Positions 5,853 to 63,959 of a stretch of DNA of 64,000 nucleotides are shown here, one piece after another. This stretch comes from Myxococcota bacterium (lineage in GTDB: Bacteria > Myxococcota > B64-G9). The DNA lies in the NCBI GenBank assembly GCA_022710975.1, contig JAKLGA010000020.1, forward strand, positions 62,001 to 126,000, in the 5' to 3' direction. Under the pieces are notes generated by a model, which ran no database searches, was not told the DNA's origin, and was given only the letters and a program-made list of their open reading frames with translations. The translations under genes were made by a program, and so were the position numbers. Each line of letters begins with the position of its first letter. Within the stretch, counting starts at the first letter, position 1.

Positions 5853-8105
5853 CTACCTCCTCCGCCGCAGGGCCAGGCCGGCCAGGGCGAGCAGCAGCAG
5901 CCCCCCTGGCGCGCCGGAAGCGCCGCAGCCGCAGCCCTCGTCGCCGCCCTCGGCGGGCGGGATGCGCTGGCACACCCCGGCGGCGCACAGGGCGTCGGCC
6001 GGGCACTCCAGGGCCGTCTGGCAGGTGAGCGTCTCGCACAGGCCGCCGCCCACCTCGGGCACGCACAGGGCCGGCGCCTGGCAGGCCGCGTCGTCCGCGC
6101 AGCTCGGCGCGCACGGCCGGGCGACGCCCTTGGTCGGGCAGGCCGTGCCGGCCGGGCACACGCCGCCCTGGGCGCAGTCCACCACCTGGCAGCGCGCGTC
6201 CTGACAGATCGCGCCCCCGGGGCAGTCGGCGTGGGACGCGCAGGCGTCCTGGCACACGCTCGTCCTGCCGGCGCCGAGCGGCGCGCACTCCTGGCCCGGC
6301 AGGCAGTCGGCCGGCCCCAGGCAGGGCACGGCGCACACGCCCTGCTCGGCCCCGGCGTCCACCCGGATGCACTGACCGCGGGCGCAGTTGATGTCCTCGA
6401 CGCAGGCGGCGCCGTCGTCGAGCTCCAGGCCGAGCGCGGCCACGCGCACCGCGCGGCCGGCGTGGACCCGGCCGAAGCCGTAGTGGTCGTCGTGCCCGAG
6501 GGCGTCGTAGGCCACGCCGCCCACCTTGTCGGCGGTCTGCTCGACGATCCAGCGGGCCTGGGCGCCGGTCAGCCCGGGGTTGGCGGAGAAGACCAGGCCC
6601 ACCACCCCGGCGGCGATCGGGCAGGCGGCCGAGGTGCCGTTGAAGTGGGAGGAGTAGTTGCCGGTCGGGTCCGGCTCGGCGAAGCCCGCGTCCGCGTCCT
6701 CGCCCCACAGGCCGGGCATGTACAGCCGCCCGTGGCGCGAGAAGCCGCTCTCGCCCAGGGTGTCGGTGGTGAAGATGCCCGCCTGGTTGTAGTCGGTGGT
6801 GCCGGTGGGCGCCACCACGCTCAGGCTGGGGCCGTAGTCGGAGTACACCACCACCCGGTCGTCGGTCCAGGTGCCGCCCACGGCCATCACCTCGGGCATG
6901 GCCTGCAGCTCGTGGGCGCCGATCTGGGTGCCCTGCACGTTGCCCATCCAGTCCGACTCCCCGTTGCCGGAGGCGAACAGCACCACCGCGCCCAGCCCGC
7001 CCCGGCCGCCCTGCACCGCGTCCCGCACCGCCTGGTAGTAGGGCTGCATGTCGATCTGGCTGGTGTAGGCCTCGTCGACGCCCCAGGAGTTGGACAGCAC
7101 CCAGGCGCCGCGCGCGGTGGCCGTGGTCAGGGCGCGGTAGCCCGTCGAGAGCTGGCTCTGGTCGGCCATGCCGTCCATCATCTTGATGGGCAGCAGGCTG
7201 CAGTCCGGGCAGATGCCGGCCAGCCCCTCGGCGTTGTCGTGCCGGGCGGCGATCACCCCGCTGCAGGCCGTGCCGTGGGCGTCCATGGCGGTCGCCAGCG
7301 GGCTGGGATCGTCCTGCTGGGTGACCGCGTTGTACCCGGTCAGCAGGTGGCCGGGCTCGAAGTCCGGGTGGGTGATCTCCACGCCCGTGTCGACCACCGC
7401 CACCACCACCTGCGGGTCGCCGAGCGTCACGTCCCAGGCCGCCTCGGCCCGGATGCCCCCGCCCGACATGCCCTGGTACCACTGCTGGCCGTACCAGGGG
7501 TCGGTGGGCAGGCGGTGGAGCTGGATCGGCACGCCGAAGTCCGGCAGGGCCCAGGCCACCTCCGCCCGCGCGGCGAGCCGCCGGGCCCCGGCCAGGGCCG
7601 CCCGCGCGTCGCGGGCCCGCAGCAGGAACGTCTGCCCCCCGTCGTCCAGGGGCTCCAGACCCTCGAACCCCCCGGCCGCGGCCAGGGACCGCGCCAGCGC
7701 CGGCCCGGGCGCGCGCAGGCGCAGGATGACCCCGCGGTCCAGGGAGAAGCGCCCGCCCGCGCCGGGCAACTCGAACAGCAGGCCGTCCCCCGCGCTCAGC
7801 CCCTGCCGGCGCAGCTCGGCGCCCACCTCGCCGGCCCGCCCCACGGCCCACGGGGCGAGCGGCAGGGACCACAGCCCGGCGCTCAGGAGACGCCACGGGG
7901 CGCGCGCGTCGAGGCCCAGCTCGGCCGCCCTGGCGCGCAGCGTGGCCTCGGCGCCAGGCTCGAGGCGCACGGCCACCGCGTCCAGGACGGGCCGCAGGCG
8001 CACCTGCTCCCCGCGCGAGTTCAGGTAGCCGAAATCCCCGGCAGCGGCGGACACCGCCAGCGTCAGGCCCGCCACCAGCCACCCGCACGAGATCGCCGCG
8101 CGCAT
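5853..8105 (-). CDS. Secreted subtilisin-like (S8) serine peptidase with MYXO-CTERM-like tail
   Basis: The 750-residue precursor begins with a signal peptide (MRAAISCGWLVAGLTLAVSAAA). An N-terminal prodomain-like region is followed by the S8 catalytic domain: Asp in VVDTGVEITHPDF, His in DAHGTACSG, oxyanion Asn in FASGNGES and Ser in FNGTSAACPIAAG, so the full triad is present. A Cys-rich stretch of short disulfide-type modules follows. The protein ends in GCGCGASGAPGG, a hydrophobic segment and RRRR, the layout of MYXO-CTERM surface-sorting tails. The ATG at 8105 is preferred over an in-frame GTG at 8117 because GGAGG lies five bases before it. It heads a two-gene operon with the AmrS-like gene. 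Confidence 0.92.
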   Translation of the reverse strand: MRAAISCGWLVAGLTLAVSAAAGDFGYLNSRGEQVRLRPVLDAVAVRLEPGAEATLRARAAELGLDARAPWRLLSAGLWSLPLAPWAVGRAGEVGAELRRQGLSAGDGLLFELPGAGGRFSLDRGVILRLRAPGPALARSLAAAGGFEGLEPLDDGGQTFLLRARDARAALAGARRLAARAEVAWALPDFGVPIQLHRLPTDPWYGQQWYQGMSGGGIRAEAAWDVTLGDPQVVVAVVDTGVEITHPDFEPGHLLTGYNAVTQQDDPSPLATAMDAHGTACSGVIAARHDNAEGLAGICPDCSLLPIKMMDGMADQSQLSTGYRALTTATARGAWVLSNSWGVDEAYTSQIDMQPYYQAVRDAVQGGRGGLGAVVLFASGNGESDWMGNVQGTQIGAHELQAMPEVMAVGGTWTDDRVVVYSDYGPSLSVVAPTGTTDYNQAGIFTTDTLGESGFSRHGRLYMPGLWGEDADAGFAEPDPTGNYSSHFNGTSAACPIAAGVVGLVFSANPGLTGAQARWIVEQTADKVGGVAYDALGHDDHYGFGRVHAGRAVRVAALGLELDDGAACVEDINCARGQCIRVDAGAEQGVCAVPCLGPADCLPGQECAPLGAGRTSVCQDACASHADCPGGAICQDARCQVVDCAQGGVCPAGTACPTKGVARPCAPSCADDAACQAPALCVPEVGGGLCETLTCQTALECPADALCAAGVCQRIPPAEGGDEGCGCGASGAPGGLLLLALAGLALRRRR

Positions 8106-8143
8106 GCTCGCCTCCACGGCCCCGGCACCCGGAGCCTCGGTCG

Positions 8144-52255: not shown

Positions 52256-53437
52256 ATGAACACACAGCGACTCACCGCCTGCTGCCTGGCGGTCCTGGCA
52301 GCGGCCCTGGGCTGCGCCACCCCTCCCCCTCCGAAGCCAGCCCAGCACCGCTTCTACAAGCACCCCGACGTGCGCGCCTGCCTGGATCTCGAGCAGCAGC
52401 GCAAACCCAGCGAGGCCCAGTCCTGCTGGGCAGGCCTCGTGCGCCGCCTCGACGGCGAGCCCGGGTTCCGCACGTCCGCCGAGCTGACCGAGGCCGACGT
52501 GGAGCGCATCCAGCGCAAGGCCGGCCTGGCCGGCGAGAGCGTGCGCGCGCTCAGGCGCGAGCTGGACGCCTGCCTCGACCTGCCCGCGGGCGACCGCAGC
52601 GCGCGCCGGGCCTGTTACGAGGCCTACCTGGCCAAGCACACGCAGGAGCTCACCCGCACGGAGCGCTACGAGATCGAGCAGGCCATCGCCGGGCTGGCGC
52701 AGAACGCGGCGCTGGCGCGCGGCGAGGTGGAGGCCACCCTGGAGCACGCCGGCCGCCTGCTGGGCGGGCGGCTGGGCCCCGAGGACGAGGGCGTGCGCCT
52801 CGAGTCCCTCGACCCGGGCGGCGTGCTGACCGGGGCGGGCCTCCCGGCCCAGGGGCTGATCGTCGAGCTGGACGGCATGCTGGCCACCGAGCTGGACGCG
52901 GCCGAGCGCATCGCCAGGCTGGAGGCCTGCGAGGAGCGACCCGTCCAGGTGCTGGTGCGGCACGGAGATCTGCAGCAGGTCGCCTTCCTGCGGGCCGAGC
53001 TGCGCTGCGGTCCGCAGGGCGCAGGCCGGCGCCTGGCCGAGGCGCACGTGCCGGTGCGCACCTGCACCCAGGCCTCCTCGCCCGAGCTGCGCCTGGGGGT
53101 GAACTGGTGTTTCAACGGCCGCGACGGCCTGCTGGAGGTCGCGGACGTGTGCGCCGGCTCGCCGGCCGACCTGGCCGAGCTGCACCCTGGCCAGCAGCTG
53201 GCGCGGGTGAACGGCCTGCGCCTGCTCGGCCAGGGGCCTGACAAGCTGCTCGAGCTGCTGGCCACCTTCCCCGCGTACAGCCTGGCCTTCGAGGATCGCG
53301 CCGGGACGCTGCAGTCGCCGCGGCCCGTCGCCGGTCCGGAGTTCCCCGAGGACAAGCGCCAGCGCTGCTGGCAGGCCATCCAGAAGCGGCTCCAGGAGCC
53401 CGAGTCAGAGGACACCTCCACCGAAAGCGGCCCATGA
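52256..53437 (+). CDS. Lipoprotein with PDZ-like modules
   Basis: The 393-residue precursor has a lipoprotein signal (lipobox AALGC). A helical Cys-containing region (about residues 35-155) follows. Two PDZ-like segments are suggested by VRLESLDPGGVLTGAGLPAQGLIVELDGM (about 180-210) and VCAGSPADLAELHPGQQLARVNGLRL (about 300-325), the usual ligand-groove strand layout. No protease domain is present. It may hold a partner at the outer membrane. ATG 52256 follows GGAGGTGACGC. Its stop overlaps the next gene's start (ATGA), so the two products are probably made together. Confidence 0.68.
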   Translation: MNTQRLTACCLAVLAAALGCATPPPPKPAQHRFYKHPDVRACLDLEQQRKPSEAQSCWAGLVRRLDGEPGFRTSAELTEADVERIQRKAGLAGESVRALRRELDACLDLPAGDRSARRACYEAYLAKHTQELTRTERYEIEQAIAGLAQNAALARGEVEATLEHAGRLLGGRLGPEDEGVRLESLDPGGVLTGAGLPAQGLIVELDGMLATELDAAERIARLEACEERPVQVLVRHGDLQQVAFLRAELRCGPQGAGRRLAEAHVPVRTCTQASSPELRLGVNWCFNGRDGLLEVADVCAGSPADLAELHPGQQLARVNGLRLLGQGPDKLLELLATFPAYSLAFEDRAGTLQSPRPVAGPEFPEDKRQRCWQAIQKRLQEPESEDTSTESGP

Positions 53438-54636
53438 TCCAGATCACCAGCTACCTGCACCACGACGAGCTGTGCGACCTCATCCGGCGCTGGATGAACT
53501 GCCAGGTCCTGCCGAGCGACGGAGCGCGCATCACGCACCTGGTGCACTTCAACAACATCTTCGTCCAGCGCACCCTCGATCAGTTCTCGCGCTGGATGTT
53601 CACCAACCTGCACGGCCGCGAGCCCACGCCGCTGAAGGTGAGCACGAAGGCGGAGCTCAAGGACGCCATCGTGGTGAACACGCCCTACACCAACGCGCGC
53701 ATCGAGCAGCTCGTCCAGGAGTACCACACCAGCCCGGAGCGCTACTTCCGCGAGACGCCCTTCCAGGGCACGCTGTTCTTCGTGCCCACCAACGGCGGCC
53801 GCCGATACGTGGGCGCCAACCGCATCAAGCGCGTCCGCCGGCTGGCGGAGAAGACCGCCAGGCGCATCATCGACCGCATCTTCGAGGCCATCAAGCACCA
53901 GGCCGAGGAGCTGGCCGACGACCGCGCCCGGCGCCTGGGCATCCCGCGCGCCAGCCTGCTGACCGGCCCCGAGGACATGCTGGCCGAGTTCCTGCAGGCC
54001 GAGCGGCGCATCCTGGAGACTCTCAAGAGCGGCCGCCCGATCCAGGACGGGCGGGTCATGGTGATCGATGACGTGGCAGGGGCGAAGGTGCTGCTGGAGG
54101 AGGGCGAGCAGTCGCGGGTGCGCGAGCTGCTCGGCCGGGCGAGTGACTGCCAGGTGGTGGACGTCGAGCCCCACAGCGGGCGCTACAACGCCACCAACAT
54201 CATCGTGCGGCACAGCCCGGACAAGGACCGCATCCTGAGCCAACCGCTCAGCCCGGCCATGCTGCGGCTCATGCACGCCCGCGGGGTGAACGCCCAGACC
54301 GCCCAGCAGGAGTTCGCCGACTTCGTCCGCAGCGGCGAGGAGGCGGTGCACATCGAGATCATCGTGGCCACCTACCAGGAGATGATGGAGAGCGAGATCG
54401 GCCGCTGTATGCACGAGGACCGCATCATCGAGCAACGCCTGCGCCAGGAGTACCGCGGCCACCTGGCCAAGAACATCGAGTACCTGATGGAGTACCTGTT
54501 CACCTTCGCCTCCTCGACCCACGTCGAGCTGCGGGAGCTGCCCATCAAGCTGTGGCACCGCTACCTGCCGGACTACTACGACGAGGTGGTCAAGGCCCTG
54601 TTCGACATCCCCCCGGTCCACCTGCCCGACGCCTGA
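53434..54636 (+). CDS. Conserved-looking protein of unknown function
   Basis: I do not recognise this 400-residue soluble protein. It has no signal peptide or membrane helix. A segment around residues 205-255 (VMVIDDVAGAKVLLEEGEQ, then DVEPHSGRYNATNIIVRHS) loosely resembles the order of motifs in RelA/SpoT-type nucleotidyltransferases (Asp-x-x-Gly-x-Arg/Lys, then Gly-Tyr), preceded by a basic helix (ANRIKRVRRLAEKTARR). That likeness is weak and key residues differ, so no activity is claimed. A His-rich start (TSYLHHDEL) is also notable. It is translationally coupled to the lipoprotein gene upstream. Confidence 0.6.
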   Translation: MIQITSYLHHDELCDLIRRWMNCQVLPSDGARITHLVHFNNIFVQRTLDQFSRWMFTNLHGREPTPLKVSTKAELKDAIVVNTPYTNARIEQLVQEYHTSPERYFRETPFQGTLFFVPTNGGRRYVGANRIKRVRRLAEKTARRIIDRIFEAIKHQAEELADDRARRLGIPRASLLTGPEDMLAEFLQAERRILETLKSGRPIQDGRVMVIDDVAGAKVLLEEGEQSRVRELLGRASDCQVVDVEPHSGRYNATNIIVRHSPDKDRILSQPLSPAMLRLMHARGVNAQTAQQEFADFVRSGEEAVHIEIIVATYQEMMESEIGRCMHEDRIIEQRLRQEYRGHLAKNIEYLMEYLFTFASSTHVELRELPIKLWHRYLPDYYDEVVKALFDIPPVHLPDA

Positions 54637-54691
54637 ACCGGCCTGCCCGGCCGGCGCTGCCGCGACGTGTCAGCGGCCGCCAGGGCGGCCC

Positions 54692-54720
54692 TTGCCCGCC
54701 TGGCCCGAGTCCGATAGATT
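54692..54720 (+). promoter_or_regulatory. Sigma-70-type promoter for the radical SAM gene
   Basis: TTGCCC (54692-54697), exactly 17 bases, TAGATT (54715-54720). The predicted start is near 54727, immediately before the GGAGG of ATG 54738. Confidence 0.55.
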
Positions 54721-54737
54721 CTCGGGCGGAGGTGCCC

Positions 54738-56147
54738 ATGGACGCGCACGCCGAGGGCGAGCTGGGGTTGTGGGGGCAGGTGGCGAGCCATGGCGTGTTC
54801 TACGCCTCGGAGGTCCTGGCGCGCCTGCCCGAGCGCGTCCTGCTCGGCCTGGCCGAGCCGCCCATGCGCAAGGGCATGCCCTGGCAGGAGGGCGTCGACT
54901 TCTTGCTGCGCGTGGTGAGGCTGCTGCACCGCCACTGGACCTCGTTCCACCCCAACGTGCGCCGCAGGATGGTGGAGAACCTGTTCGGCCACGCCTTCCT
55001 GCGCGGTGACGAGAAACGCCGCTGGGCCTGCGAGCACCTGGGCGACTTCCCCACCGTCATGGTGGTCAGCCCCACCATGGACTGCAACCTGCGCTGCAAG
55101 GGCTGCTACAGCTTCAACTACGAGCGCGAGGACGCCATCTCCACCCAGCGGCTCGACCGCCTGTACACCGAGGCCGAGGCGCTCGGCATCCACATGATCG
55201 TTCTGAGCGGCGGGGAGCCCTTCCTGCGCGAGGACACCCTCGACCTGTTCGCCTCCCACCCACGCCAGATCTTCATGACCTACACCAACGGCACGCTGCT
55301 GGCCGATCGCCGCCTGGCCTGGCGGCTGGCGGAGCTCGGCAACGTCATCCCCTGCGTCAGCGTGGAGGGCTTCGAGCCGGAGACCGACGCGCGCCGCGGC
55401 AAGGGCACCTACCGGAAGCTCACCCGGGCCATGCGCGACATGCGCGAGGCCGGGCTGCTGTTCGGCTTCTCTGCCACCCCGATGCGCTCGAACAACGAGC
55501 TGCTGCTGACGGACCAGTTCGTCGAGCACTACACCCAGCTCGGCTGCAGGGTGGGCTGGTACTTCTCCTACATGCCGGTGGGCCGCGAGCCCGACCTCAG
55601 CCTGATGCCCACGCCGGCCCAGCGCCTGGCCCGCTACCACCGCATCCGCGCCATCCGGGAGAAGTACGACATCCTGGCGGCCGACTTCTGGTGTGACGGC
55701 ATGCTGACCGGGGGCTGCCTGTCGGGCGGCCGCACCTACTTCCACGTCAACGCCCAGGGCGGCGTGGAGCCGTGCGTGTTCCACCAGTTCTCGACCGACA
55801 GCATCCTGGACAAGAGCCTGGCCGAGTGCCTGGCGGGCGCCTACCTCCGGGACGTGCGCAGGCGCCTGCGCGAGGTGGAGAACCCGCTGCGGCCCTGTCC
55901 GGTCATCGACAACCCGCACCTCCTGCGCGAGCTGGTGGCCAAGCACCACCCGCGCCCCTCCCAGGTCGGCGGCGAGGCCACCCTGAGCGGCGCCCTGGCC
56001 GCGGGCCTGGACGCCTACGCGGACGAGGTCCGCGAGCTGTTCGATCCGCTCTTCGCCGAGCACAGCCAGGACTACCCCTGGCCGCTCGAGCCGCTCGGCT
56101 CCTGGTCCCAGAAGCAGCAGAGCCGCGAGGGCAAGCGGCGGGCGTGA
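54738..56147 (+). CDS. Radical SAM enzyme with SPASM-like C-terminal Cys region
   Basis: The 469-residue protein has an N-terminal helical region (about residues 1-110), then the radical SAM domain: cluster motif CNLRCKGCYSF (about 117-127), SGGEPFLRED and TYTNGTLL. The C-terminal part has further Cys (WCDGMLTGGCLSGG, VEPCVFHQF, LRPCPVID), as in SPASM-type enzymes that modify peptides or activate partners. No precursor peptide gene is seen beside it. The ATG follows GGAGG. An in-frame extension to 54552 overlaps the preceding gene and is rejected. The methyltransferase gene converges on it. Confidence 0.85.
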   Translation: MDAHAEGELGLWGQVASHGVFYASEVLARLPERVLLGLAEPPMRKGMPWQEGVDFLLRVVRLLHRHWTSFHPNVRRRMVENLFGHAFLRGDEKRRWACEHLGDFPTVMVVSPTMDCNLRCKGCYSFNYEREDAISTQRLDRLYTEAEALGIHMIVLSGGEPFLREDTLDLFASHPRQIFMTYTNGTLLADRRLAWRLAELGNVIPCVSVEGFEPETDARRGKGTYRKLTRAMRDMREAGLLFGFSATPMRSNNELLLTDQFVEHYTQLGCRVGWYFSYMPVGREPDLSLMPTPAQRLARYHRIRAIREKYDILAADFWCDGMLTGGCLSGGRTYFHVNAQGGVEPCVFHQFSTDSILDKSLAECLAGAYLRDVRRRLREVENPLRPCPVIDNPHLLRELVAKHHPRPSQVGGEATLSGALAAGLDAYADEVRELFDPLFAEHSQDYPWPLEPLGSWSQKQQSREGKRRA

Positions 56148-56182
56148 GCCCCCCTCCCCGATCCGCGCCTGGCCCCGCGCCC

Positions 56183-56950
56183 TCAGCCCGCCAGCGCCAG
56201 CGCCGGCTGGGCCGTGGCGCGCACGCGCAGCAGCAGGTGGCAGTCCCGCCCGCCGGGCCGCGCTCCGGGCAGCGACTCCCAGAAGGTGGTGGTCAGGCGC
56301 GGGGCCAGCTCGGACGGTAGCTGACCGAGCGCGTCCAGCGCGGCTCCGGGCAACAGGGCCGCGGCGAAGAACTCGTCCTCGAGCTCCAGCCCGAGCGCGT
56401 CCAGGCGGGCCAGCAGAGCCCCGCGGGTGACTCCGGGCGAGCCGCGCCTGGCGAGCGCGCTGGCGAGCCTGGCGCGGACGTACAGTCGGCCGCCCGGGCC
56501 GAGCCCGTCCACCACCCGCTCCAGCAGCCGGGTGAGCTCGCCGGCGGAGAAGGCCTGCAGGGGGCGTCCCAGGCACACCAGCCTGGCACCCTGGTAGCGG
56601 GTGAACTGCTCGAGACCCAGGCGCAGGAAGACCGCGCGGCCGCCCGCGCGCGCCTGCCAGGCCGCCCTGCGGGCCTCCACCACCAGGCGGGGGTCGGGCT
56701 CCACGCCCACCACGTGCTCGGCCAGCGCCAGGTAGCGCAGCGCCCACACCCCCCGTCCACAGCCCAGCTCCACCAGCCGGGGGATGGACGCCGGGCCGAG
56801 CCAGCGGCGCAGGCGCGCCACGATCAGCCCCCGCAGCAGCCCCCGCAGGACCGCGCGCGCCTGCAGCGCCCCACCCTCCCCGGCCGCAGACGGTCCCCGG
56901 GCCAGGCTGGCCAGCGCGGGCAGGACGTCGAGGGGCTGGAGCTCGTGCAC
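56183..56950 (-). CDS. SAM-dependent methyltransferase
   Basis: The 255-residue product has a Rossmann methyltransferase core: motif I LVELGCGRGVWALRYLA (about residues 58-74), the acidic end of strand two VVGVEPDPRLVVEA, and a post-core GLGPGGRLYVRAR strand. The substrate is unknown. The start is GTG 56950, seven bases after GGAGG; the open frame extends to 57256 but the extra part looks non-coding. It converges on the radical SAM gene, with 35 bases between stops, so joint function is only suggested by proximity. Confidence 0.75.
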   Translation of the reverse strand: MHELQPLDVLPALASLARGPSAAGEGGALQARAVLRGLLRGLIVARLRRWLGPASIPRLVELGCGRGVWALRYLALAEHVVGVEPDPRLVVEARRAAWQARAGGRAVFLRLGLEQFTRYQGARLVCLGRPLQAFSAGELTRLLERVVDGLGPGGRLYVRARLASALARRGSPGVTRGALLARLDALGLELEDEFFAAALLPGAALDALGQLPSELAPRLTTTFWESLPGARPGGRDCHLLLRVRATAQPALALAG

Positions 56951-57230
56951 GACCGCACCTCCGGGGCAGAGGGCCCGACCGGGTCGTTCAGACGATCCTG
57001 CAAGCCGTGTACCAGCCGGGCGCAGGCTGCCTCCCGGGGCCTGCAGACAGCGGAATCCAGTAAAAGCACAGGCGGGCAGCAATTCGCGGGGTGAGGTGGT
57101 AGGCGCACGCCGCGGCACGCGCGCCACACCCGCGCCTCCCCCAGGTCGAGGTCGTCCCGCGGAAGGACTCTCTCGGGAGCGGGCGAGGACCGATGTCGGT
57201 GGCCGTGAGAGTAGGGGACGGAGCGCGAGG
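56951..57230. other. Intergenic region with no recognised feature
   Basis: This 280-base gap separates the methyltransferase start from the end of the giant lipoprotein gene, both on the minus strand. Apart from the GGAGG belonging to the methyltransferase start, I see no convincing promoter, hairpin or small gene. Confidence 0.5.
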
Positions 57231-60200
57231 CTACTTGCAGAGCGGATCCTCACCATCGCAGTCCGAGTCGACGCCGTCCTCGCACTCGTCGTAGGCGCCC
57301 GGGTTGGTGTAGGGATCCGAGTCGTCGCAGTCGTCCCCGCCGCACCAGTCGGCCTCGTAGCCGTCGTAGTCGTCGTCCGCGCAACCGCAGACCGCGTCCT
57401 CGCCGTCGCAGTCCTGGTCGATGCCGTCGTCGCACTCGTCGTAGGCGCCCGGGTTCACGCCCGGATCCGCGTCGTCGCAGTCGAAGCCGCCGCACCAGTC
57501 GGCCTCGTAGCCGTCGTAGTCGTCGTCCGCGCAGCCGCAGGCCAGGTCCTCGCCGTCGCAGTCCTGGTCGATGCCGTCGTCGCACTCCTCGGTCGCGCCC
57601 GGGTTCACGTAGGGGTCGTAGTCGTCGCAGTCGTCCCCGCCGCAGGCCGCGTCCAGGTACCCGTCGTAGTCCTCGTCCGCGCAGTCGCAGGGCAGGTCCT
57701 CGCCGTCGCAATCCTGGTCGATGCCGTCGTCGCACTCCTCGGTCGCGCCCGGGTTCACGTAGGGGTCCGCGTCGTCGCAGTCGTCACCGCCGCAGGCCGC
57801 GTCCAGGTACCCGTCGTAGTCGGCGTCCTCGCAGTCGCAGGGCAGGTCCTCGCCGTCGCAGTCCTGGTCGACGCCGTCGTCGCAGACCTCGTTCATCGCC
57901 GGGTTGATCTCGGGATCGGTGTCGTCGCAGTCCGAGCCCTCGCAGGCCACATCGTAGAAGCCGTCCTCGTCCAGGTCCCAGCAGTCGCAGGACAGGTCCG
58001 AGCCGTTGCAGTCCTGGTCGATGCCGTCGTCGCACAGCTCCTCGGCGCCCGGGTTGACCGTGCCGTCCGTGTCGTCGCAGTCGTCCCCGCCACAGGCCGC
58101 GTCGAGGTAGAAGTCCCCGTCCGCGTCCTCGCAGTCGCAGGGCACGTCCGCGCCGTCGCAGTCCTGGTCGATGTCGTCGCCGCAGACCTCGTTCATCGCC
58201 GGGTTGACCTCGGGATCCGCGTCGTCGCAGTCCGAGCCCTCGCAGGCCACGTCGTAGAAGCCGTCCTCGTCCAGGTCCCAGCAGTCGCAGGACAGATCCG
58301 AGCCGTTGCAGTCCTGGTCGATGCCGTCGTCGCACAGCTCCTCGGCGCCCGGATTGGTCAGGCCGTCGGTGTCGTCGCAGTCATCCCCACCGCAGGTCGC
58401 GTCCAGGTACCCGTCCCCGTCCGCGTCCTCGCAGCCGCACTCCAGATCCAGGCCGTCGCAGTCCTGGTCGACGCCGTCGTCGCAGACCTCGTTCATCGCC
58501 GGGTTGATCTCGGGATCGGTGTCGTCGCAGTCCGAGCCCTCGCAGGCCACGTCGTAGAAGCCGTCCTCGTCGAGATCCCAGCAGTCACAGGTGAGATCCT
58601 CACCGTCGCAGTCCTGGTCGATGCCGTCGTCGCACAGCTCCTCGGCGCCCGGGTTGGTCAGGCCGTCGGCGTCGTCGCAGTCGTCCCCGCCGCACCAGTC
58701 GGCCTGGAACCCGTCGCCGTCCTCGTCCCAGCAGTCGCAGGTGATGTCCTCGCCGTCGCAGTCCTGGTCGACGCCGTCGCCGCACTCCTCGAAGGCGCCG
58801 GGGTAGGTCATGTAGTCCGTGTCGTCGCAGTCGTCCCCGCCGCAGGCCGCGTCCAGGTAGCCGTCCCCGTCGAGGTCCTCGCAGCCGCCGCAGCTCAGGT
58901 CCTCGCCGTCGCAGTCCTGGTCGATGCCGTCGTCGCACAGCTCGTCCGCGCCGGGGTAGACCTCGGGGTCGTAGTCGTCGCAGTCCGCGCCGCCGCAGAA
59001 GTAGTCGGAGTAACCGTCGAAGTCCGCGTCCTCGCAGTCGCAGGGCTGATCCCAGCCGTTGCAGTCCTGGTCCAGGCCGTCGTCGCAGATCTCGATGGCC
59101 GCCGGGTTCACCTGCGGATCGCTGTCGTCGCAGTCGTCCCCGCCGCAGACCTCGTCCTGGTAGCCGTCGGCGTCCGCGTCCTCGCAGTCGCAGGGCAGGT
59201 CCTCGCCGTCGCAGTCCTGGTCGACGCCGTCGTCGCACTCCTCGCTGGCGTCCGGGCTGATGCTCGCGTCCGCGTCGTCGCAGTCCGAGCCGCCGCAGGC
59301 CTGGTCGAGCCAGCCGTCGCCGTCCACGTCCGGGCAGTCGCACGGCAGATCCACGCCGTCGCAATCCTGATCGATGCCGTCGTCGCAGATCTCCGCGCCC
59401 CCGGGGTTGGCGCCCGGTTCGCCGTCGTCGCAGTCTTCCCCGCCGCACCAGTCGGCCTGGAAGCCATCGCCGTCCTCGTCCGGGCAGTCGCAGGCGAGAT
59501 CCTCGCCGTCGCAGTCCTGGTCGATGCCGTCGTCGCACTCCTCGGCCGCGTCCGGGTTGACGCCCGCGTCCGTGTCGTCGCAGTCCTCGCCGCCGCAGGC
59601 CACGTCCTCGGCGCCGTCCCCGTCCGCGTCCACGCAGGCGCAGCTCAGATCCACGCCGTCGCAGTCCTGGTCGACGCCGTCGTCGCACTCCTCTTCCGCG
59701 CCAGGGTAGGCCGACGGGTCGGCGTCGTCGCAGTCCTCGCCGCCGCAGGTGGCGTCGCGGAAGCCGTCGCCGTCCTCGTCCGTGCAGTCGCAGGACAGGT
59801 CCGCGCCGCTGCAGTCCTGATCGACGCCGTCCCCGCAGTCCTCCACCCCCTCCGGATTGATGTCGGGGTCCTGGTCGTCGCAGTCGTCCCCGCCGCAGGT
59901 GTCGTCGCGGAAGCCGTCGCCGTCCGCGTCCGCGCACTCGCAGGGCAGGTCCGCGCCGTCGCAGTCCTGATCCACGCCGTCGCCGCAGATCTCCTCGGCC
60001 CCCGGGTAGACCTCCCAGTCGAGGTCGTCGCAGTCGTCCCCGCCGCAGGCCGTGTCCTGGTACCCGTCCCAGTCCAGGTCCTCGCAGTCGCAGGGCAGGT
60101 CCACCCCGTTGCAGTCCTGATCCACGCCGTCCCCGCACAGCTCCTGCCCCTCGGGGCTCACCGAGGCGTCGCGGTCGTTGCAGTCGTCGCCGCCGCAGGC

Positions 60201-62195
60201 CGCGTCCTGGTAGCCGTCGTGGTCCGCGTCGTCGCAGTCGCAGGGCAGGTCCACCCCGTTGCAGTCCTGGTCGATGCGGTCCCCGCACACCTCCTGGGCG
60301 TCCGGATTCACCGTGGCGTCCGCGTCGTTGCAGTCGTCGCCGCCGCAGGCCAGGGCGTGCGCGCCGTCGCTGTCCGCGTCCGCGCAGTCACAGGGCAGGT
60401 CCGCGCCGTCGCAGTCCTGGTCCACGCCGTCCCCGCACACCTCGAGGGCGTCCGGGTTCACCCGCGGGTTCGCGTCGTCGCAGTCGGTGCCGCCGCAGGC
60501 CTCGTCCTCGGCGCCGTCGCGATCCGCGTCCGCGCAAGCGCAGGGCAGATCCGCCCCGTTGCAGTCCTGGTCGATGGCGTCGCCGCACACCTCCTGGGCG
60601 CCCGGGTGGACCAGCGCGCTGTCGTCGTCGCAGTCCGTGCCGCCGCAGGCCTCGTCGCGCGCGCCGTCGCTGTCAGCGTCCGCGCAGCCGCAGGCCTGAT
60701 CCGCGCCGTTGCAGTCCTGGTCGATGCCGTCGCCGCACACTTCCTGAGCGCCAGGGTGAACCGCGCCGTCGCTGTCGTCGCAGTCGGTGCCGCCGCAAGC
60801 CTCGGCCCGGGCGCCGTCGTTGTCCCGGTCCACGCAGTCGCAGGGCAGATCCGCGCCGTTGCAGTCCTGGTCCACGCCGTCGCCGCAGGTCTCCCGCGCG
60901 CCCGGGTAAACCGTGGCGTCCGCGTCGTTGCAGTCCTCGCCGCCGCAGGCCGGCGCCTCGGCGCCGTCGCTGTCCGCGTCCGCGCACGTGCAGGGCAGAT
61001 CGCCGCCGTTGCAGTCCTGGTCGATCCGATCGCCGCACACCTCCTGCGCGCCCGGGTGCACGGTGGCGTCCGCATCGTCGCAGTCCGGGCCGCCGCAGGC
61101 CCCGTCCGGCGCGCCGTCGCGATCCTCGTCCGGGCAGGAGCAGGCCAGATCCGCGCCGCTGCAGTCCTGGTCGATGCCGTCGCCGCAGGTCTCGCGCGCG
61201 CCCGGGTGCACGGTGGCGTCCGCGTCGTTGCAGTCGTCGCCGCCGCAGGCCCCGTCCGGCGCGCCGTCGTCGTCCTCGTCCGCGCAGCCGCAGGTGAGAT
61301 CCGCGCCCGAGCAGTCCTGGTCGATGCCATCCCCGCAGGTCTCCGGGGCGTCCGGGTAGACGCCGGCGTTCGTGTCGTCGCAGTCGGTGCCGCCCAGGCA
61401 GCGCTCCGGGGCGCGCCCGTCTCCGTCGGCGTCCAGCTCGGTGGGCCCGGCGGTGCAGCGCCCGCGCAGGCAGGTGTCGGCGTTGGAGCAGTCGCTGGCG
61501 TCCAGGCAGGCCGTGCCGTCCCGGGCGGGAGCGAAATCGCAGACACCCGTCTGGCAGGTGTCGGCGGTGCACGCGTCGCCGTCGTCGCAGCCGCTGTCAT
61601 CCGCGCAGCTCGCGGGCACGCAGCGGCCGTCCCGGCAGGTCAGCGCGGCGTCCGCGCAGGTCACCCCGACGCACAGCCCGTCGGTGCAGGTGTCGAAGGA
61701 GCAGACCTCCCCGTGGGCGCAGGCCTGGTTCGGGCAGTCCTCCGGGAAGCAGTGGCCCTGGGCGCAGATCTGGTTGGCCGGGCACTCCACGCCCACGCAG
61801 TCGGCCGGCACGCAGCCCGCGCCGGAGCACACCTCCCAGTCACCCTCGCAGCGCTGTCCCGGGCAGTCGATGGGCATGCAGTGTCCGTCCGCGCAGCGCT
61901 GGTTGGCCGGGCAGGGCACGTTCACGCAGTCGCTGGTGGTGCACACCTCGTCGACGCACACCTCGCCCTCGGGGCAGTTGCGCGAGGCGCAGGTGCCCGT
62001 GTAGCAGCGCCCCAGGACGCACACCTCGCCGGCGTCGCAGGTCACCCCGGCGCACTCCGGGGTCACGCACACCCCGTCCTGGCAGTAGTACCCGTCCGGG
62101 CACAGGCCCGGCGGGCAGCTGTTGGAGCCGCCGCTGTCGCAGCCGGCCAGGAGCAGGAATCCAGCGACCACCCAGAGCGCGCGCAGGCGTGTCAT
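57231..62195 (-). CDS. Giant MopE-type Cys/Asp-rich repeat lipoprotein
   Basis: The 1654-residue precursor has a lipoprotein signal ([12 protein letters not shown]). Residues ~20-250 are short Cys-rich modules of the form CxxxxCPxxxxCxxGxC. From about 254 to 1653 the protein is 28 repeats of a 50-residue unit, each with D-x-D-x-D-G, CGGxDCDD, P(G/D)AxExC and DGxDQDC(D/N)G motifs. This is the putative metal-binding repeat named after the copper-binding surface protein MopE. With about six Cys and over a dozen Asp/Glu per unit it could bind many calcium or copper ions on the cell surface. ATG 62195 has GGAGGTGAACC upstream. Confidence 0.9.
57237..61436 (-). repeat. 28 tandem 150-bp coding repeats
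   Basis: The repeats keep an almost perfect 150-base period for 4.2 kb; the only length change I see is one extra Gly codon at the end of unit 17. Units near the start of the protein favour GADLPC endings with CGDG, while later units favour GEDLPC with CDDG, so two subfamilies expanded separately. Confidence 0.9.
57840..58740 (-). repeat. Higher-order 300-bp duplication (three copies) inside the repeat array
   Basis: Units 19-24 form three near-identical pairs. The odd member lacks the standard CGG (it reads ACEGSDCDD) and has PAMNEVC. Matching DNA text recurs at exactly 300-base intervals (for example the stretch ending at 57900, 58200 and 58500). This is the most recent duplication in the gene. 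Confidence 0.8.
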
Positions 62196-62221
62196 CGGTT
62201 CACCTCCAGGGGACAAGAGAA

Positions 62222-62250
62222 AGATAGCCGTCCGCGGGGGACGCGTCCAG
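62222..62250 (-). promoter_or_regulatory. Candidate promoter for the giant lipoprotein gene
   Basis: On the minus strand, TGGACG (62250-62245), exactly 17 bases, TATCTT (62227-62222), 26 bases before ATG 62195. The -35 is a moderate match. Confidence 0.5.
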
Positions 62251-62291
62251 GGGGGCAGGCGGCTCCGGCCTTGACTTCGAGGGGCGCTTTC

Positions 62292-63959
62292 TCAGGCCGC
62301 GGCGGGCGGAGGCTCCTCGGGCTGGCCGAGCACCCGGCGGCCGTAGGCCGCCTTCTCCGCGGCGACCCGGGCCGCGTCCCAGCCCAGCCGCCGCGCGACC
62401 ACCGTGGCCACGCGCTCGAGCGCCGGCTCGCCGATGTGCTCGGCCGTGCCGATGGCGGTCCGCCGGAGCAGCACGTCGCACAGCCCCACGGCCAGCTCCT
62501 GGTCCACGGCGAAGGCCACCTGCGCCAGGATGTCCGGGTGGCCTGCGCGCACCCGCTCGGCCAGGCCCGGCTCGGCCTTCAGCAGCTCGACGAGCCCGCG
62601 GTGGCGGAGGCCGTAGGTGCGCACCAGATTCCCGGCCACGTCCGCGGGCAGCAGCCCCTCGAGCGCCCGGGTGGACTCGGCCAGGTAGTCGACGAACCGG
62701 CCGGCGGGCGCGCCCGGCAGGCGGCGGCGGGTGGTGAGGCAGGCCACCGCGGGCCGATCCAGGTGCAGCAGCACCCGGTCCACGATGCGCTCCGCCAGGT
62801 GCCGCGAGGTGGTGTACTTCCCCCCCAGCGCGGACAGTAGCCCGCGCCTGCCGCGGCGGTGGTGGTCGATGATCTCGTAGCGCCGCGAGGCCTGGTAGAC
62901 CTGGGTGTCGGCCTCGACCAGCGGGCGCACCCCGGCGTAGCGGAAGGTGATGTCCGCGGGGCCGAGCTCCGCCTGGGGCAGCGCCTCGCGCACCTCGGCC
63001 AGCAGGTCGCCCACGTCGGCCTCGGTGACCGAGAGCTCGTCGACCTGTCCGCGGAAGACCGCGTCGGTGGTGCCGATCAGGCTGCGCCCGCGCCAGGGGA
63101 TGATGAAGAAGTGCCGCCCGGCGGCCGTGCGCAGCACCAGCGCGTGGCGCCTGGCGAGCGGGCGGGCGGTGACCAGGTGGATGCCCTTGGAGCGGGTGAG
63201 CGCCACGTCCTCGCCGGTGCCGCACAGCCGGTCCACCTGGTCGGCCCAGGGCCCGGCCACGTTGACCAGCATGCGGGCCTCAACCGCCAGGCGGCGCCCG
63301 CCCAGGCGGTCCTCGATCTCTGCGGGCCCCAGCCCGCCCTCCCGGCTGGCGATGGCCGTGACCTGCGCGTGGTTGACCACCACCGCGCCGAGGGCGGCGG
63401 CCCCCAGCACGAACTCGACGCACAGGCGCTCCGGCTCGCACAGGCAGTCGTGGTAGAGCGCGCCGCCGGTCAGGCCCTCGGCCCGCACCAGCGGCTCGGC
63501 CGCCAGCACCTCGGCGGGCGTGAGCGTGCGGTGGCCGGGCAGCAGGTGCTCCGCGTCCTGCCCGCGGTTGCGGTCGAAGCCCAACAGGTCGTAGGCCAGC
63601 ATGCCGGCGCGGATGAGCCAGCGCGTGTTGCCGCGCGGGTAGGTCGGGATCAGGAAGGGCAGCGGCCAGACGTGGTGCGGGGCGATGCCGGCCAGCACCC
63701 GCCGCTCGCGCAGGCTCTCGCGCACGAGCCCCACCTCGCCGTTCTTCAGGTAGCGCAGGCCGCCGTGGATCAGCTTGCTGGTGGCCGAGGAGGTGGCCGA
63801 GGCGAAGTCGCCCTTGTCCACCAGGGCCACCTTGAGCCCGCGCAGGCTCGCGTCCCAGGCCACGCAGGCGCCGGTGATGCCGCCGCCGACCACCAGCAGG
63901 TCGAAGCGTTGGCCCGCGAGCCGGGCGAGCGCCTCCTCTCGGTGCAGGGCTGGCGGCAT
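62292..63959 (-). CDS. glpD: Glycerol-3-phosphate dehydrogenase (FAD, quinone-linked)
   Basis: GlpD oxidises glycerol-3-phosphate to dihydroxyacetone phosphate at the membrane and feeds electrons to quinone. The 555-residue product has the family length. It has the FAD dinucleotide motif DLLVVGGGITGACVAWDASLRG (about residues 20-41), the second landmark TSSATSKLIHGGLRYL, a substrate-domain FFIIPWRGRSLIGTTD, and GGKYTTSRHLAERIVD near the end of the DAO domain, followed by the DAO_C helical domain. The ATG at 63959 is 41 bases from the window end, so its promoter is not visible. No glpK or glpF is in the window. Confidence 0.95.
   Translation of the reverse strand: MPPALHREEALARLAGQRFDLLVVGGGITGACVAWDASLRGLKVALVDKGDFASATSSATSKLIHGGLRYLKNGEVGLVRESLRERRVLAGIAPHHVWPLPFLIPTYPRGNTRWLIRAGMLAYDLLGFDRNRGQDAEHLLPGHRTLTPAEVLAAEPLVRAEGLTGGALYHDCLCEPERLCVEFVLGAAALGAVVVNHAQVTAIASREGGLGPAEIEDRLGGRRLAVEARMLVNVAGPWADQVDRLCGTGEDVALTRSKGIHLVTARPLARRHALVLRTAAGRHFFIIPWRGRSLIGTTDAVFRGQVDELSVTEADVGDLLAEVREALPQAELGPADITFRYAGVRPLVEADTQVYQASRRYEIIDHHRRGRRGLLSALGGKYTTSRHLAERIVDRVLLHLDRPAVACLTTRRRLPGAPAGRFVDYLAESTRALEGLLPADVAGNLVRTYGLRHRGLVELLKAEPGLAERVRAGHPDILAQVAFAVDQELAVGLCDVLLRRTAIGTAEHIGEPALERVATVVARRLGWDAARVAAEKAAYGRRVLGQPEEPPPAAA

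Follow-up and report, generated by a model that had tools for sequence, protein, structure and literature searches.

The window, that is, the whole 64,000-nucleotide stretch of DNA analysed here, encodes a protein of 1654 residues which, with a probability of roughly 0.6, we consider to be a calcium-dependent, disulfide-stapled lipoprotein rod. Behind a lipobox and a series of small cysteine-rich modules, the chain consists of 28 units of the Pfam family PF11617 (Cu-binding_MopE), whose length is constrained, whose cysteines covary and which contain few ligands of the copper type.

Anatomy of the gene and the protein

The open reading frame was originally predicted as a 1654-residue protein and both its ends were confirmed (Table 1). 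From a putative lipobox, with its Cys at residue 19, the product would be of the lipoprotein type and lipidated. A location at the surface may be proposed, although a lipobox tells neither which membrane holds the chain nor from which side. In enterics, Asp at position +2 after the lipid-bearing Cys is a signal for retention in the inner membrane, a rule which is uncertain for this group of bacteria; if it applies, the Asp found at +2 of the array protein fits poorly with a surface rod.

Table 1. Features of the array gene and of its neighbours, in window coordinates.
Feature	Position	Strand	Remarks
Array protein gene	57231..62195	-	complete, 1654 aa, lipoprotein-type PF11617 array protein; ATG 62195, stop 57231-57233
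Ribosome-binding site GGAGGTGA	62200..62207	-	5-12 bases upstream of ATG; from sequence
Signal peptide, lipobox LLAG-C, residues 1-19	62139..62195	-	read from sequence
Ten 4-Cys modules, residues 27-247	61455..62117	-	first eight with a 21-22 residue period
28 PF11617 units, residues 251-1651	57243..61445	-	period 50 aa / 150 bp
Sole indel (spacing 51), CxC to CGGC between C2 and C4, border of units 17/18	58884..58889	-	
C-terminal LCK and stop	57231..57242	-	Cys is the predicted partner of the last unit's C37; from sequence and Cys analysis
FAD-dependent glycerol-3-phosphate dehydrogenase type (glpD), upstream gene	62292..63959	-	Pfam DAO and DAO_C
Class I methyltransferase, downstream gene, start uncertain	56183..56956	-	Pfam Methyltransf_25
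Radical SAM/SPASM protein	54738..56147	+	third gene of the segment absent in G007 and G008

The N-terminal 4-Cys region is itself a near-exact tandem, with its first eight modules mostly 21 residues apart, and it contains one extra Cys at residue 219, which could be the partner of the odd C17 of the first PF11617 unit. The chain ends in ...DPLCK, for which NCBIfam gave no match to the MYXO-CTERM signal (TIGR03901), and domains other than PF11617 were detected neither in Pfam-A (E<=1) nor in NCBIfam. The N-terminal modules had been likened to those of the subtilase starting at 5853, a resemblance that is weak, the match being at E=0.016; the Cys-rich modules of the subtilase sit at its C-terminal end, ahead of a MYXO-CTERM signal. 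This subtilase (S8, 5853-8117) matches the signal with 23.6 bits for a cut-off of 20, which suggests that a myxobacteria-type sorting system exists in the source genome. Opposite the array, an antisense open reading frame (56784-62840, + strand, 2018 aa) was rejected as a gene, because this antisense frame, followed across the array gene, was free of stops in all 300 synonymous shuffles and therefore follows from codon usage.

Repeat units, cysteines and fold

Pfam-A matched PF11617 to the protein with E=5e-199 (644 bits versus a cut-off of 27) in 28 stretches, the number of units that had been foreseen. The DC[DN]D anchors of these units are spaced by 50 residues in 26 of the 27 intervals and by 51 in one, after removal from the count of a chance extra anchor match at residue 653, and TRF gave a period of 150 bp with 27.8 copies. 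The predicted exact period with a single one-codon exception was thereby recovered, and so was the predicted composition of about six cysteines and over a dozen acidic residues: a unit contains six Cys, except for unit 1 with four, and on average 17.6 acidic residues, the 1404 residues of the array comprising 494 acidic versus 22 basic ones, His being counted among the latter.

The pairing of these cysteines was approached through their covariation in a unit alignment (A2, in which each position is numbered one below the unit column given in this text). C4 covaries with C17 (phi 0.66) and C37 with C2 of the next unit (phi 0.60), values which are supportive but not proof, since the rows of A2 are related and were selected in favour of Cys-rich units and so overstate the independent evidence. 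C22 and C45 are present in all rows, and in a wider set the presence of C37 goes with that of the following linker Cys (0.73) more closely than with that of its own upstream Cys (0.42). We thus predict three disulfides per module: C4-C17, C22-C45 and a bond that joins C37 to the next unit's C2. The array fits this last register, because C2 is missing from unit 1 and one additional Cys stands at the end of the chain; moreover, the 208 Cys that follow the lipid Cys are even in number and can all be paired. The sole indel falls at a module border, between the C2 that would close one module and the C4 that would open the next.

For a single unit, AlphaFold predicted an ordered fold with a pLDDT of 94.4 and a pTM of 0.74, while for three units the values were 89 and 0.41, so that the module appears ordered and the angle between modules is not fixed by the model. 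Of the original prediction that the units stack as identical folded modules, the folded state is thus supported by the models, the stacking is not borne out by the low pTM, and the identity does not hold, neighbouring units being alike at 67% of their residues. The predicted units have next to no helix or strand, as one would expect where metal and disulfides hold the fold together; AlphaFold itself places no metal in its models. With Foldseek, neither model had a significant match: the single-unit model retrieved AOAH entries alone, weakly (E about 8), and the best match of the three-unit model (E 0.11) was 5wtl, an OmpA which we take to be the one of the report on disulfide-dependent calcium binding considered below. 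Compared with PDB sequences, the unit profile matched MopE* (E=3.7e-12) and AOAH (E=4.8e-4), the sole matches below E=0.01. The AOAH crystals presumably contain calcium in the region matched by the unit.

PF11617 proteins in the source genome and in the phylum

Among the 150 matches listed, at least 56 open frames of the source genome (7.13 Mb, 29 contigs) contain PF11617 matches. The family was found in 99 of the 117 sampled genomes of the phylum, with at least about 60 matches, of a maximum of 62 scored per genome, in each of the eight sampled genomes of the taxonomic family. In the paralogues L031, L032, L033, L035 and L043 the units are succeeded by a C-terminus resembling MYXO-CTERM by eye, TIGR03901 matching L035 alone, just below the cut-off, and in those with a recognised domain the units come after LTD, C25 peptidase or trypsin domains. 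This position, between an enzyme or another ectodomain and a C-terminus resembling a membrane anchor, points to the use of the units as stalks, of which the array gene is a headless, N-terminally anchored version. The literature searched contained no study of PF11617 arrays.

Several other arrays have an architecture of their own. In L060 (1184-6532) a higher-order repeat is formed by blocks of seven 48-aa units parted twice by exactly 339 residues, and in L073 (5407-8280, 76/72) and L054 (3289-12126, 57/65) alternating spacings produce periods of two units or longer. Arrays like the deltaproteobacterial ones also occur in the MAG records L081, L112 (titled Bifidobacterium breve), L099 and L122 (titled Klebsiella pneumoniae); such records with enteric or gut titles are probably mislabelled or contaminated bins.

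Nature of the metal and proposed structure

The potential ligands of the array are 494 Asp or Glu, 6 His and 4 Met, a content of the hard-acid type. DxDxDG recurs as a calcium motif (PMC3123361), AOAH carries a calcium-binding annotation (PMC12898756), and a bacterial OmpA with TSP3 repeats is reported to show disulfide-dependent calcium binding, according to the title of a reference in PMC12045341. In MopE, calcium guards the protein against proteolysis, and the high-affinity Cu(I) site is made of His132, His203 and kynurenine 130 (PMC3423442); the unit corresponds to residues 4-47 of MopE*, so that these site residues fall outside it. In the MopE* crystal, the 46 residues containing the single unit cannot be seen (PMC3423442). 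Taken together, the ligand content, the position of the MopE site, the DxDxDG motifs and the relationship with AOAH make calcium the preferred metal: composition and homology favour units that bind calcium, and the name "Cu-binding" of the family probably points to the wrong metal.

In the structure that we propose, the protein would be a lipoprotein made nearly entirely of stalk, in which the lipid anchor is followed by ten small 4-Cys modules and then by 28 PF11617 modules, with no head domain at the end. Each PF11617 module, of 50 residues, would fold irregularly and be kept together by three disulfides and by calcium ions, for which the DxDxDG, DCxDxD...E and DGxDxDCxGxD segments would supply the ligands; the metal, the number of ions, the rod shape, the exposure at the surface and the biological role all belong to interpretation. 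By neutralising and stiffening a very acidic chain, calcium would turn the array into a long rod that reaches into the periplasm from the membrane, or stands out from the cell surface, and that may be a calcium-dependent filament or spacer with a structural or adhesive role.

A less probable reading, which nevertheless deserves consideration, uses the same metal and makes mechanics secondary: the array would be a calcium reservoir or buffer near the membrane. The acidity of the chain (494 of 1404 residues), its repeated DxDxDG-type motifs and the missing head domain would all suit a buffer, but a buffer could be disordered and needs neither disulfides nor a strictly fixed unit length, whereas the single unit is predicted to be ordered and the units of the paralogues occupy the position of a stalk.

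The calcium-stiffened rod may also be placed in a wider frame, to which we would give slightly less than even odds. The whole PF11617 unit would be a misnamed calcium module containing as many as three disulfides, and the array gene would encode a headless filament of 28 such modules, a lipoprotein belonging to a so far undescribed class of bacterial surface rods, which elsewhere in the genome serves as a stalk for proteases and other ectodomains. Most sampled genomes of the phylum contain PF11617, often tens of times per genome, and its function rests on the name of one copper protein; should calcium be confirmed, a very common repeat would need a corrected annotation. The 28 fixed-length variants of one module also constitute a clean test object, in which metal sites, disulfide pattern and mechanics are directly measurable.

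The family name, taken from MopE, would make of the array a protein for storing or scavenging copper or another soft metal. Some support for this comes from MopE* lacking its first 24 residues, which loses its binding to a Cu(II) column (PMC3423442), so that a micromolar affinity for Cu(II) may reside in the unit-bearing N-terminus, with His26 as a candidate ligand (PMC3423442). At the column aligned with His26 (column 30), just 4 of the 28 array units have His, the Cu(I) site of MopE lies outside the unit as described above, and the array offers no more than 6 His and 4 Met, its cysteines being pairable as disulfides. Copper is therefore improbable as the metal of the array.

Constraint on the length of the units

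Chance is not an issue for the array. An exact period could also result merely from recent copying or homogenisation of the units, their length being under no selection. Some recent copies do exist (units 20/22/24 and 25/26), and the identity between units declines slowly as the distance between them grows. Against this, the mean DNA identity between units is just 74-79%, and codon identity exceeds that of a within-column shuffle by more than 3 SD (z>3) in only one of 378 unit pairs. The nucleotide tree of the 28 units has a total length of 6.07 substitutions per site, or about 910 events over 150 sites, versus one in-frame codon indel in the whole array, which implies that unit length is constrained and agrees with the strong selection against indels that had been predicted. 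Judged from their divergence, the units seem mostly old; codon usage is extreme (GC3 0.96), which makes synonymous divergence a blunt clock.

Across Deltaproteobacteria/Myxococcota there are similar arrays whose fixed periods differ, and those of other genomes likewise keep their own period (42, 46, 47, 48, 50, 52 or 66 aa, or alternating 57/65 or 72/76). The fixed period is thus a general habit of PF11617 arrays, each with its own value, in which the array gene is not peculiar, and recent copying as its sole cause is hardly credible. Least plausible of all is a unit number created by collapse or expansion during assembly: a tandem repeat of 4.2 kb invites such an artefact, but the longest exact repeat within the array is 99 bp (one other alone reaches 60 bp), so that even short reads can place the units, and the reading frame is open throughout.

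Genomic neighbourhood

The array gene, the methyltransferase gene and the radical SAM gene together occupy the interval 54637-62291 of the window. The glpD gene on one side was found in 12 of 12 relatives tested; the methyltransferase has few homologues among relatives. In two genomes of the family, G007 and G008 (loci L137 and L143), glpD and the gene corresponding to 53434-54636 stand tail to tail, nearly touching, and the three-gene segment is absent, while in G002 and G005 other sequence lies between the same two genes. The array gene is thus accessory at the glpD site. A part of the radical SAM protein in modifying the array was also considered and no sign of a link emerged, its closest homologues, in G001 (C277) and G006 (C309), being on contigs without a match to the array protein among the matches listed.

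Comparison with known systems

MopE of Methylococcus capsulatus (2vov) has one unit, at MopE* residues 4-47, and is stabilised by calcium (PMC3423442), but its copper-site domain (His132, Trp/Kyn130, His203) is missing from the array protein and 2vov was matched over residues 4-46 alone. In AOAH (5w7a, 5w78, 5w7d), the segment DCNDSDKTVYPG...DSNCNG matches positions 15-46 of the unit profile (E=4.8e-4); in contrast to the array, this is a single partial unit within an enzyme, with no repeat. Thrombospondin type 3 repeats, present in bacterial OmpA and TraB, share with the array the DxDxDG loops and, on the reading proposed here, disulfides and an irregular calcium-dependent structure, whereas unit length and Cys pattern differ and the array protein has no TSP_3 (PF02412) match in Pfam.

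In the TraA protein of myxobacteria, Cys-rich modules of about 20 residues have been proposed as a stalk for surface presentation (PMC6372800, PMC12045341), and by description they are like the Cys-rich modules of about 20 residues of the array protein. TraA has a recognition head and MYXO-CTERM, whereas the array protein is headless and bears a putative lipobox at its N-terminus. Finally, the array protein has in common with other PF11617 proteins of Deltaproteobacteria/Myxococcota a widespread unit and arrays each with its own fixed period. It differs from them by two extra Cys pairs in its 50-aa unit, by having no other recognised domain family and by its length, which no other exact-period array in the inspected PF11617-array frames attains. 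Within a common repeat family it is a member of unusual length and regularity, extreme yet ordinary in kind.
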